Assembly (NCBI GenBank): GCA_000511875.1 | Contig: AZIN01000001.1 | Span: 1,247,332-1,311,331 of the forward strand | DNA from: Gammaproteobacteria bacterium MOLA455 | Lineage (GTDB): Bacteria; Pseudomonadota; Gammaproteobacteria; Pseudomonadales; Porticoccaceae | Direction of reading: 5' to 3' | DNA: 64,000 nucleotides | Shown here: positions 6,696-40,497 of the stretch, one piece after another | Position numbering within the stretch: the stretch's first letter is position 1 | Layout: every line of letters begins with the position of its first letter | Notes under the pieces: model-generated | What the model saw: only the letters and a program-made list of their open reading frames with translations | What the model was told of the DNA's origin: nothing | The model's database searches: none | Program-made: the position numbers and the translations under genes

Positions 6696-7922
6696 TTAAC
6701 TATGCTCTGCCCAATAACTAGAGGCTTGAGCATCTAAAAAATCGGCCCACCATTGCATCATTTTAGTCCGCTCATCAATATATCTTGCATGATGCGTATA
6801 TGCGGCTCTAACACCATTGCGCTCTTGATGCGCGAGCTGTCGCTCAATAGCATCAGGATTAAAGCCCTCCTCATTTAGGATGGATGACGCTGTCGCACGA
6901 AACCCATGAGGGACAGCCTTGCTCTTGCCCAACGTTTTGCCATCGAAGCCCATTCTAAAAACAGCTTGTCGCATCGTGTTATCAGACATTATTTTGGTTC
7001 GGTTAACCTCTGAGGGAAATACTAGCTCACAGCGTCCCGTGATAACTCTAATCCGCTGAATTACATCAATGGACTGCTGCGATAGGGGTACCAGATGCTC
7101 TACCTTCATTTTCATGCGCTCGGCAGGGATTCGCCAAAGGTTACCTTCAAGATCAAATTCCTCCCACCTTGCTCCGCGAATCTCTTCTGATCGAACGAAG
7201 GTCAGCACCAACAGCTTGATACTCAACTGCGTGAGAATCCGCCCTCTTTTTGAATAGCCCTCCAGACAATTAAGAAACTCTGGCAGCTCTTTCTTAGGCA
7301 ATGAAGGCCGGTGGGTAACCTTTCGAGATTTTACAATGCCGTCGAGGTCGCCAGCGGGATTGGTTGTCACGATTCCGTGTTGAATCGCGTAGCGATAAAC
7401 CACTTTGATACATTGCTTAACTCGATTGGCAACATCAAGCGCGTCTCTGGCCTCAATTTTTTTAATAACGGCGATTACCTGTAGGGGAGTAATTTGGTCT
7501 GCAGGTAACTTACCAAGAGCCTTAAAGCTATTATCAGCTAATCGCTTCATTACTCGGTCAGCGTGACTATCAGTCCACTTATCACGCTCGTGATGCCACC
7601 ACTTAACGGCAACCTCCTCAAATGTCGGCACGGTACTCTGCCGTTTGCGCTCTTTCTTAACTTGACTGGGGTCAACGCCTTCAGCCAACAATTTTTTCGC
7701 CTCATGACGACTCTCTCTCGCTGACTTGAGTGACACTAACGGAAACACACCTATTGCATAGGTTTTACGTTTCCCAGCAAATCGATAATCCAGACGCCAG
7801 TATTTTTTACCATTCTTTTTGACCAATAAATACATGCCATCGGAATCCGATATTTTGTAGTCCTTATCAGACCGCTTGGCTTCTTTAACTTGAATGGCGG
7901 TAATAGGCATATTCGGCGGCAT
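6696..7922 (-). CDS. P4-type tyrosine recombinase (integrase)
   Basis: A 408-aa site-specific recombinase that integrates and excises the element at the adjacent tRNA-Leu. Residues about 5-95 form the DUF4102-type arm-binding N-terminal domain (GMYLLVK..GKKYWRLDYR..GKRK), about 100-200 the SAM-like core-binding domain, and about 210-390 the catalytic domain. All catalytic residues are visible: R244, H339 and R342 (HGFR), H365, and nucleophile Y375 (AAYTHH). It starts about 150 bases from the tRNA 3' end and points away from it, the usual P4 arrangement. Intact length and residues suggest it is active. Confidence 0.96.
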   Translation of the reverse strand: MPPNMPITAIQVKEAKRSDKDYKISDSDGMYLLVKKNGKKYWRLDYRFAGKRKTYAIGVFPLVSLKSARESRHEAKKLLAEGVDPSQVKKERKRQSTVPTFEEVAVKWWHHERDKWTDSHADRVMKRLADNSFKALGKLPADQITPLQVIAVIKKIEARDALDVANRVKQCIKVVYRYAIQHGIVTTNPAGDLDGIVKSRKVTHRPSLPKKELPEFLNCLEGYSKRGRILTQLSIKLLVLTFVRSEEIRGARWEEFDLEGNLWRIPAERMKMKVEHLVPLSQQSIDVIQRIRVITGRCELVFPSEVNRTKIMSDNTMRQAVFRMGFDGKTLGKSKAVPHGFRATASSILNEEGFNPDAIERQLAHQERNGVRAAYTHHARYIDERTKMMQWWADFLDAQASSYWAEHS

Positions 7923-8014: not shown

Positions 8015-8040
8015 AAAAAAGCCCCGATATACGGGGCTAT
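8015..8040 (-). terminator. Rho-independent terminator downstream of tRNA-Leu
   Basis: On the minus strand an AGCCCCG...CGGGGCT hairpin is followed by TTTTTTG. It would end transcription coming from secG/tRNA-Leu before the integrase. It lies just past the presumed attachment site, so it may belong to the element. Confidence 0.8.
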
Positions 8041-8073: not shown

Positions 8074-8158
8074 TGGTGCCCAAGGCCGGACTCGAACCGG
8101 CACAGCTTTCGCCACTACCCCCTCAAGATAGCGTGTCTACCAATTCCACCACTTGGGC
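8074..8158 (-). tRNA. tRNA-Leu (anticodon GAG)
   Basis: Reading the minus strand, the 85-base gene includes the encoded CCA. GCCCAAG pairs with CTTGGGC in the acceptor stem. The D-loop contains GGAATTGGTAG. The anticodon stem CTATC/GGTAG holds the loop TTGAGGG, giving GAG. A long variable arm typical of class II tRNAs is followed by the T arm with GGTTCGAGTCC. It lies downstream of secG, as in many gammaproteobacteria. Its 3' end is the likely attachment site of the element on the left, and its 5' half is copied three times upstream. Confidence 0.97.
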
Positions 8159-8539
8159 ATATAACATCTAACTCTCTACACTTAATTGCTTCTTGCCAAT
8201 ATCAGCAACACGCTGAGCGTGGTCGCTACCGGCGTCCTGCCTATCGCGACACTCGGGCTCCTGCCCATCGTCTACCAATTCCACCACTTGGGCATATAAC
8301 ATCTAACTCTCTACACCTAATTGCTTCTTGCCAATATCAGCAACACGCTGAGCGTGGTCGCTACCGGCGTCCTGCCTATCGCGACACTCGGGCTCCGGCC
8401 CATCGTCTACCAATTCCACCACTTGGGCATATAACATCTAACTCTCTAAACTTAATTGCTTCTTGCCAATATCAGCAACACGCTGAGCGTGGTCGCTACC
8501 GGCGTCCTGCCCATCGTCTACCAATTCCACCACTTAAGC
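8159..8539 (-). repeat. Tandem array of 135/135/111-bp units each carrying a tRNA-Leu 5' half
   Basis: The units are 8159-8293, 8294-8428 and 8429-8539. The first two differ at two bases. The third lacks 24 bp lying between two CCTGCC words, as expected from slippage. Each unit carries the first 24 bases of the adjacent tRNA-Leu gene (plus-strand copies at 8270-8293, 8405-8428 and a diverged one at 8516-8539). The tRNA part is followed by ATGGGC, which can pair with the acceptor strand to form a mini-stem. Each unit also has a CACGC-TCA-GCGTG hairpin. No gene is seen in this 398-base gap between secG and the tRNA; the plus-strand reading frame across it is only open because the unit lengths are multiples of three. 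Confidence 0.93.
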
Positions 8540-8556: not shown

Positions 8557-8907
8557 TTACTGAGGGATTTCAGAGTTTTGCTCTGACTTTGTTTCTACTG
8601 CTGGTATATCCATATCAACTGCCGAATCGAAGGGAATAATTTCCATTTCTGGCAACAGATCAGCATCTACCACTGTTTTATTTTTCGCAATAACCGCGAG
8701 ACTAACACTGGTAACAAAAAAGATTGTCGACAGTATTGCGGTCATTCTGCTGAAGAAGTTCCAGCTGCCGCCACTGCCAAACACGGTTTGTGAACCACCC
8801 GCACCAAATGAAGCTCCCGCCTCCGCGCCCTTACCTTGCTGGACTAAAATAAGCCCGATCAGAACTACGGCGATTAGAAAGTGAAAGATTAAAATAAAAT
8901 TTTCCAT
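8557..8907 (-). CDS. secG: Protein translocase subunit SecG
   Basis: A 116-aa inner-membrane protein of the SecYEG channel. Two membrane helices are visible (about residues 4-22 and 54-73), separated by the conserved glycine-rich loop (QQGKGAEAG then [11 protein letters not shown]). An acidic tail follows, of variable length as is usual for SecG. It starts 2 bases after the tpiA stop on the same strand, so it is read with tpiA, and tRNA-Leu follows downstream after the repeat array. Confidence 0.96.
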
Positions 8908-31296: not shown

Positions 31297-31820
31297 TGAC
31301 CGATTCTGATATTAAAAATAATACTGATAACGACAACAATGAAGAAGATCTGGTCAGCAAGTCGCAGCTTAAACGCGACAGTCATGCACTTCAGGATATG
31401 GGCAGCAAACTAGTTGAAATGCCCTTAGGGCAACTGGCCAAATTTAATTTGCCGGACAATTTAAAGGACGCGATTACCGAGGCGCGCCGCTTAAAGAACC
31501 GTGAAGGAAAGCGTCGCCAACTGCAGTATATTGGCAAGCTGATGCGCACCGCCGATATCAGCTTTATTGAAGAGACATTGGAGCGTATGGACCATCAGTC
31601 GCAAACCTATAGACAGCATTTTATGCAGCTAGAGACATTGCGCGACCGATTAATCAGCCAAGGTAATCCGGTTATAGAAGAGTTAATGGAGAAATACCCC
31701 ACAGCCGATCGCCAGCAACTGCGAAACCTACAGCGCCAAGCGGCACGAGAGCTTGAACTGAAAAAAGCGCCCACTGCGAGCAAGAAAATCTTCGCCTACC
31801 TGCGCCAGCTTAGTGAGTAG
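31296..31820 (+). CDS. darP: Ribosome biogenesis factor DarP (DUF615/YjgA)
   Basis: A 174-aa acidic-start, basic-core helical protein of the DUF615 family, which associates with 50S precursors. Family segments are SKSQLKRDSHALQDMGSKL, LKDAITEARRLK and KREGKRRQLQYIGKLMR. The stop (TAG) is immediately followed by an 18-bp repeat array in the same frame. Length is normal for the family. Confidence 0.95.
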   Translation: MTDSDIKNNTDNDNNEEDLVSKSQLKRDSHALQDMGSKLVEMPLGQLAKFNLPDNLKDAITEARRLKNREGKRRQLQYIGKLMRTADISFIEETLERMDHQSQTYRQHFMQLETLRDRLISQGNPVIEELMEKYPTADRQQLRNLQRQAARELELKKAPTASKKIFAYLRQLSE

Positions 31821-31980
31821 AGCCCTCAGCGAATAAAAAGCCCTCAGCAGATCAAGAGCCCTCAGCGGATAGAGAGCCCTCAGCGAATAAAGAGCCCTCA
31901 GCGAATAAAAAGCCCTCAGCGAATAGAGAGCCCTCAGCGGATCAAGAGCCCTCAGCGGATGGTTAAAAAGCCCTCAGCCA
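31821..31980 (+). repeat. 18-bp minisatellite filling the darP-nit gap
   Basis: Units beginning AGCCCTCAGC start at 31821, 31839, 31857, 31875, 31893, 31911, 31929 and 31947, each 18 bp apart, with a ninth start at 31969. The array runs from the darP stop codon to the nit stop codon. The period is a multiple of three and in the darP frame each unit would read SPQRIK-like; variable sites fall at or next to third codon positions more than elsewhere. In Pseudomonas tldD lies between nit and darP; here it is absent. Confidence 0.95.
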
Positions 31981-40398: not shown

Positions 40399-40497
40399 AA
40401 CAGCCCTGAGCCAATTAACAGCCCTGAGCAATTAACAGCCCTGAGCCAATTAACAGCCCTGAGCAATTAACAGCCCTGAGCCAATTAACAGCTCAGC
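40399..40497 (+). repeat. 17/18-bp alternating minisatellite between mreB and mreC
   Basis: AACAGCCCTGAG starts at 40399, 40417, 40434, 40452 and 40469, with a shortened sixth copy at 40487. The spacing alternates 18 and 17 because the tail is CCAATT or CAATT, so the real unit is a 35-bp dimer. The core AGCCCT-G-AGC is one base different from the darP-nit array (AGCCCT-C-AGC). Confidence 0.92.

Follow-up and report, generated by a model that had tools for sequence, protein, structure and literature searches.

What is the array of partial tRNA copies that stands directly upstream of a tRNA-Leu gene in this genome, and why is it kept there? In the window analysed here (the whole stretch of 64,000 nucleotides), a tandem array with units of 135, 135 and 111 bp abuts the 5′ end of a tRNA-Leu(GAG) gene on the minus strand. 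An earlier note, made from the letters alone, had described each unit as carrying the first 24 bases of the tRNA gene and a CACGC-TCA-GCGTG hairpin. The array is real: nucleotides 1-24 of the tRNA are matched at 24/24 positions in units 1 and 2, and the hairpin is found in all three units. What the note missed is a structured module, here called X, as well as the restriction of the array to tRNA-Leu genes and its conservation. On the minus strand the order is secG-like ORF, three units, tRNA-Leu(GAG) and a terminator-like hairpin, with the following features:

8020-8038, minus strand: terminator-like hairpin 3′ of tRNA-Leu(GAG)
8074-8158, minus strand: intact tRNA-Leu(GAG) gene (ARAGORN; Rfam RF00005, 50.1 bits)
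8159-8293, minus strand: unit 1 (proximal), whole, 135 bp
8159-8208, minus strand: linker of unit 1, ending at the mature tRNA +1
8209-8221, minus strand: short hairpin CACGC-TCA-GCGTG of unit 1
8221-8269, minus strand: module X of unit 1 (covariance model R1, 70.3 bits, E 3.9e-16; covariation)
8270-8293, minus strand: unit 1 copy of tRNA nucleotides 1-24, identical to the adjoining tRNA
8294-8428, minus strand: unit 2, whole, 135 bp
8294-8356, minus strand: short hairpin (8344-8356) and linker of unit 2
8356-8404, minus strand: module X of unit 2, loop 1 CGGA rather than AGGA (R1, 64.9 bits, E 9.1e-15)
8405-8428, minus strand: unit 2 copy of tRNA nucleotides 1-24
8429-8539, minus strand: unit 3 (outermost), whole, 111 bp
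8429-8491, minus strand: short hairpin (8479-8491) and linker of unit 3
8491-8515, minus strand: X remnant of unit 3 (partial R1 match at 8496-8516)
8516-8539, minus strand: diverged unit 3 copy of tRNA nucleotides 1-24 (GCTTAAG for GCCCAAG)
8557-8907, minus strand: secG-like ORF directly upstream of the array (ORF list)

A complete unit consists of tRNA nucleotides 1-24 (GCCCAAGTGGTGGAATTGGTAGAC), X (GATGGGCAGGAGCCCGAGTGTCGCGATAGGCAGGACGCCGGTAGCGACC), the short hairpin (CACGCTCAGCGTG) and a linker of about 50 nt. X, itself about 50 nt long, lies between the tRNA half and the short hairpin and is the conserved part of the unit. The first bases of the short hairpin in unit 1 carry on the tRNA sequence (GAC continued by ACGC). 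Two of 135 positions distinguish unit 1 from unit 2, and unit 3 has a 24-bp deletion between two GGCAGG repeats. None of the units contains a complete cloverleaf, and both ARAGORN and Rfam see one tRNA in the whole window. The upstream ORF is called secG-like from its own sequence and from its order with tRNA-Leu(GAG), which is kept in relatives. Other tandem repeats in the window occur at 31819-31978, at 40399-40492 and, as repeats of 66-132 bp that are probably coding, on the minus strand at 878-2636.

We searched upstream of all 34 tRNA genes of the window's genome for a copy of each gene's own first 24 nt. Such a copy, matching at 24/24 positions, precedes three of the five tRNA-Leu genes (Fisher p 0.0017 against non-Leu genes), namely GAG, UAA (L002) and CAA (L005), and in each case the tRNA half matches its own adjoining tRNA. 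No self-copy was found upstream of the 29 other tRNA genes, where the best match was at most 16/24. Since exact 24-mers lie in register and the upstream matches of non-Leu tRNAs stop at 16/24, the resemblance is not due to chance.

The earlier note had suggested a search of other genomes and would have taken absence from close relatives as a sign of neutral duplication; the array does recur in relatives. When 84,980 species genomes were scanned with the pattern AATTGGTAGACGANNNNCAGGA, 65 loci emerged, 61 of which showed a tRNA-Leu half followed by X when read by eye; the other four (L094, L118, L126, L134) were unrelated. A first order-wide pattern had also matched helicase, rpoC and other genes, which were discarded on reading. 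The same architecture is thus seen at about 60 loci in named Gammaproteobacteria, where 1 to 5 truncated copies precede tRNA-Leu genes in many marine members. Apart from L121, the next gene is a tRNA-Leu (GAG, CAG, CAA or UAA) wherever the contig reaches that far. Carriers include Gilvimarinus, Marinimicrobium, Simiduia, Oceanicoccus, Porticoccus, HTCC2207/SAR92, Oleiphilus, Aliiglaciecola, Lacimicrobium, Kangiella, Aliikangiella and metagenome-assembled genomes labelled Arenicella and Thiotrichales. As a rule the copy matches the tRNA next to it and shows the same junction, GGTAGAC joined to GA. The genomes are a sample, and a stretch of the tRNA half (AATTGGTAGACGA, the last 11 nt of the copy) was fixed in the search patterns, so the conservation of those 11 nt is no evidence, while the first 13 nt were free to vary.

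Within the window's genus, the GAG locus carries one to four units or remnants, and decayed remnants of units occur at L012, L014 and L015. A scan of an order sample without any condition on the loop found 34 units in 18 of 382 genomes, in a patchy distribution; a further match without GGA (L284) was set aside from this count. The class sample added the carriers G560 and G660. In G560, a three-unit array of the same architecture precedes tRNA-Leu(GAG) (L258 1450-1985), with loops of CTAT/CT/TT and AAA/GAA and no AGGA loops. Upstream of tRNA-Leu(GAG) in another genome (L023, G037) we observed a different leader duplication, in which GTCAGGACGACTTTTTCCGTATAAA occurs twice around a GGTACAGGATGTACC hairpin with no tRNA half.

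On the 3′ side of X, the copy goes on with the bases that come next in the resident tRNA (CACGC, CGCAAGG or CATAGG), so X lies within the D arm of an incomplete tRNA. At L121/L259, X sits at the same site inside a full-length second tRNA-Leu(UAA) downstream of an intact gene, an arrangement that looks like an intermediate.

X itself is a pair of hairpins. In unit 1, hairpin 1 is GGGC-AGGA-GCCC and the second part has an outer stem, GTCGC/GCGAC, which encloses an inner hairpin, GGC-AGGAC-GCC. Both apical loops have the form C-AGGA(N)-G. Across 40 distinct units the apical loops are AGGA or AGGAN, and the inner loop, whose sequence was not fixed by any search pattern, is AGGA in most; an internal loop of the G..A/G..A type parts the inner from the outer stem. 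Two stems were tested in these 40 units: 96.5% of cells were paired, with 53 double-change cells compared with 13.7 in shuffles, and pairing dropped to 18-45% when the partner was shifted by 1-3 columns. The fold energies of the whole array with its tRNA (z -1.3) and of a single unit (z -0.85) are not unusual, and the structural support for the units therefore comes from covariation. In a search for an Rfam family covering the cassette, the tRNA alone matched, apart from two sub-threshold hits outside cassettes (L039 and L007). A mini-stem that the earlier note had drawn between the acceptor strand and a following ATGGGC does not hold up: ATGGGC forms the 5′ arm of a hairpin within X itself, and the alternative pairing, possible on paper in two window copies, is available to 4 of 60 distinct units, against 59 of 60 in which hairpin 1 closes on itself. 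On these counts the mini-stem is coincidental.

To measure conservation, we compared mean pairwise identities at the orthologous UAA locus in nine species of the window's genus. The first 13 nt of the copy (0.906) and X (0.945) approach the tRNA itself (0.966), and the flanks fall to 0.435 upstream of the unit and 0.239 downstream. The hairpin and linker are at 0.749 with a nearly constant length (sd 1.4), and this common descent of the linker indicates that X was inherited rather than re-inserted. With X 94.5% identical between flanks of 24-44%, the comparison shows purifying selection on X at the UAA locus and not neutral duplication. In a CAG set of 13 species (one locus each) from several families, identity is 0.275 upstream, 0.863 over the first 13 nt of the copy, 0.726 in X, 0.40 in the linker, 0.909 in the tRNA and 0.231 downstream. 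Selection was measured at these two sets of loci, and the GAG array of the window is assumed to behave alike. The identity of X within a locus (0.946 at UAA, 0.951 at GAG and 0.889 at CAA) exceeds that between loci (0.797), so X is locus-specific and was inherited in place. A compensatory change in place, from GGGC/GCCC to GGAC/GTCC, is seen at one GAG locus (L106).

By position, the unit is probably transcribed as part of the pre-tRNA leader, as the earlier note had proposed. A sigma-70-like promoter lies within 150 bp upstream of the unit at 28 of 50 loci, with 3.8 expected by shuffling, and a promoter-like site lies between unit and tRNA at one of the 50. Upstream sites were found at 14/14 CAG and 9/10 CAA loci (23/24 together) and are often followed by GC-rich bases. 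The distance from unit start to tRNA is steady (139.8 nt, sd 4.2), and that from the -10 element to the unit is 48.6 nt (sd 20.8). Upstream of UAA units there is often a tRNA-Cys gene, and upstream of GAG units secG, which is consistent with operons. A simple scan of the minus strand between the secG-like ORF and the tRNA of the window gave no promoter-like site, so the array is presumably transcribed together with that ORF. Taken together, the conservation, the locus-specific X and the steady spacing between unit and tRNA speak against neutral duplication, and a purely neutral local duplication is further contradicted by the recurrence in other genomes. We consider it quite likely that the cassette is a functional structured leader RNA.

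Our best overall explanation, which we hold to be about evenly balanced between right and wrong, is that tandem amplification of a tRNA-Leu leader cassette gave rise to the array, with CsrA/RsmA binding as the cassette's likeliest mode of action. The cassette would consist of a truncated tRNA (nt 1 to about 30), whose D arm holds X and whose anticodon arm is replaced by a hairpin, and a linker; it would be transcribed within the pre-tRNA 5′ leader and removed by RNase P. Through its two C-AGGA(N)-G loops, X would bind a protein of the CsrA/RsmA family, and the leader would then titrate this protein in proportion to tRNA-Leu transcription; alternatively, the bound protein could act in cis on maturation of the adjoining tRNA-Leu. 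Tandem copies would add binding sites, their number changing by unequal recombination.

Putative CsrA/RsmA binding by the loops is the least certain step, which we advance as a possibility a good deal short of probable. The loops of X, two per unit, match the CsrB repeat CAGGA(U/A/C)G, which is presented in hairpin loops (PMC7652899). GGA was found in short-hairpin loop 1 of all 34 units from the order scan that set no condition on the loop (L284 being set aside). A csrA gene was present in 18/18 carrier genomes or close relatives checked, but csrA is near-universal in the group, and its presence is uninformative as a discriminating test. The match to the CsrB repeat, together with csrA in every carrier checked, favours a CsrA/RsmA-binding leader. 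G560, however, has csrA and yet no GGA in the loops of its three units; with the architecture kept there, this argues against CsrA binding as a universal step, and such binding cannot be the whole story. The only csrA of the window's genome (L313 1033-1290; G000:C4 ~406530-406790) reads as frameshifted after about codon 40, with the expected C-terminal part continuing in another frame, which is possibly an assembly error or else a real lesion.

A different origin for the pattern is suggested by the relatives of X elsewhere. The covariance model of X finds relatives as dispersed repeats in 64 of 274 class genomes, including 51-nt elements of the DAQGRASAAGGRMPGAA type that lie in frame inside long ORFs (L216, L224, L226) and add about 17 codons, which are features of Rickettsia palindromic elements (RPE). 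Some relatives lie inside longer inverted repeats (L037, L053). Intergenic inverted-repeat elements with several GGA-loop hairpins and an embedded X were observed at L037, L053, L038, L054 and L039, and ATACAGGGATGT in L037 equals the CsrA SELEX consensus RUACARGGAUGU. On this basis X could be a selfish or neutral, REP/RPE-like mobile palindrome that was inserted into redundant tandem copies of tRNA-Leu, the copies persisting since RNase P removes leaders and the arrays growing by slippage. The full-length second tRNA-Leu(UAA) interrupted by X in L259, the patchy distribution and the decayed remnants fit this account, as do the further palindromes inserted into copies (L013, L255), and the structure and loops of X could partly reflect mobility. 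A second palindrome (GCAATGTTTTGCTCCTGCAAACATTGC...CCATGGCGG), unrelated to X, is present in tRNA-Leu copies at L013, L113 and L255. Against this stand the conservation of X far above its flanks at a vertically inherited locus and a difference in loop length: tRNA-linked units of the order sample have a loop 1 of at most 5 nt (34/34) and never the AGGGAN loop, whereas about 15 of 21 dispersed copies read have the 6-nt AGGGAN loop, indicating that the dispersed pool was not the source of the tRNA-linked copies. Every X identified in G038, G258 and G209 lies at a tRNA-Leu gene, and an X-free partial copy was absent from 20 other tRNA-Leu loci. Mobilisation by a resident RAYT was rejected for the window's genome (G000), which has no Y1 tyrosine transposase; none was found in the carriers G023 and G237 either, and no movement of the tRNA-linked subfamily was seen. 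X was probably a mobile palindrome at first, of which a subfamily bound to tRNA-Leu was then kept, but the conservation is more than selfish residence by itself can explain, and we regard such residence as an unlikely full account.

A folding switch, in which the copy's 5′ acceptor strand and the genuine one vie for the tRNA 3′ strand so that the leader controls how much pre-tRNA folds and matures, ranks next best after the CsrA/RsmA leader and is equally unlikely. Such competition, raised in the earlier note, is thermodynamically possible: predicted equilibrium pairing with the tRNA 3′ strand averages 0.48 for the copy and 0.26 for the genuine acceptor, and the copy equals the tRNA over its first 13 nt in 22 of 36 loci (differing by at most 2 nt in 28) whose leaders are otherwise unrelated (mean identity 0.29). 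Yet co-transcriptional folding should favour the nearer strand, the diverged acceptor strands of L091, L098 and L151 cannot pair, nor can that of L113, which has an insertion, and the identity of copy and tRNA could also stem from gene conversion. Where leaders are unrelated, homology starts at the mature +1; it ends near the anticodon arm, and unit length is nearly constant. These features would also suit an RNA origin, by which a mature tRNA-Leu (5′ end at +1) carrying X was reverse-copied and inserted upstream of its own gene. This is improbable: L092 and L095 duplicate 30-55 nt of leader too, the same pattern results when leaders diverge while the tRNA part is constrained, and the proposal addresses origin rather than function. 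Model substrates of RNase P need the T arm and the 3′ acceptor strand. The unit has the first 24 nt of a natural substrate but neither of these parts, which makes the earlier suggestion that the copies bind RNase P as decoys, competing with the real substrate, very improbable indeed.

A tyrosine-recombinase-like integrase ORF lies at 6696-7922, just past the tRNA terminator. Attachment-site debris of this integrase was considered and rejected: the tRNA 3′ end occurs once in the 64-kb window, with no second copy, the array lies 5′ of the tRNA rather than on the integrase side, and in G023, which also carries the array, the 3′ flank beyond the terminator differs.

The 5′ leaders of bacterial tRNAs are usually regarded as waste taken off by RNase P. 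Here, a structured cassette under selection is found in the leaders of a single tRNA family across many species; some of these are in culture, which makes a regulatory role of pre-tRNA leaders directly testable. A palindromic element akin to dispersed repeats has moreover become fixed and conserved at one kind of gene. We found no published description of the cassette in the open-access literature, and subscription journals may hold one.

Among known systems, the rtT repeats of E. coli tyrT are tandem, carry a tRNA 3′ end, lie downstream of one tRNA gene and are co-transcribed with it. The cassette resembles them as a tandem repeat that adjoins a tRNA gene with a piece of tRNA in each unit, but it carries the 5′ half, lies upstream, includes a covarying hairpin module and is found in several orders, at the genes of four tRNA-Leu isoacceptors. 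The leuZ 3′ external transcribed spacer of E. coli is a sponge that pairs with sRNAs; it is likewise a discarded spacer of a tRNA-Leu transcript with a titration role (here proposed), whereas the cassette is a 5′ leader with hairpins of the protein-binding type. With CsrB/CsrC and RsmY/RsmZ it shares C-AGGA(U/A/C)-G hairpin loops multiplied by repeated units (PMC7652899), but it lies inside tRNA-Leu leaders rather than in a free-standing sRNA gene and has two loops per unit. REP (GTAG/CGTC) and Rickettsia palindromic elements are small, dispersed palindromes, some inside genes (PMC3733652), as are the relatives of X; X differs in being a double hairpin of about 50 nt, with a distinct tRNA-linked subfamily that has been passed on in place. 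Repeats in tRNA transcripts and GGA-hairpin RNAs are thus already known kinds, and the cassette does not have all the defining features of either. We tentatively suggest, with somewhat less than even confidence, that it may represent an undescribed class of pre-tRNA leader, confined to tRNA-Leu genes of several gammaproteobacterial orders, in which a partial tRNA mimic with a conserved double GGA hairpin would couple tRNA-Leu transcription to a global RNA-binding regulator or govern maturation of the adjoining tRNA.
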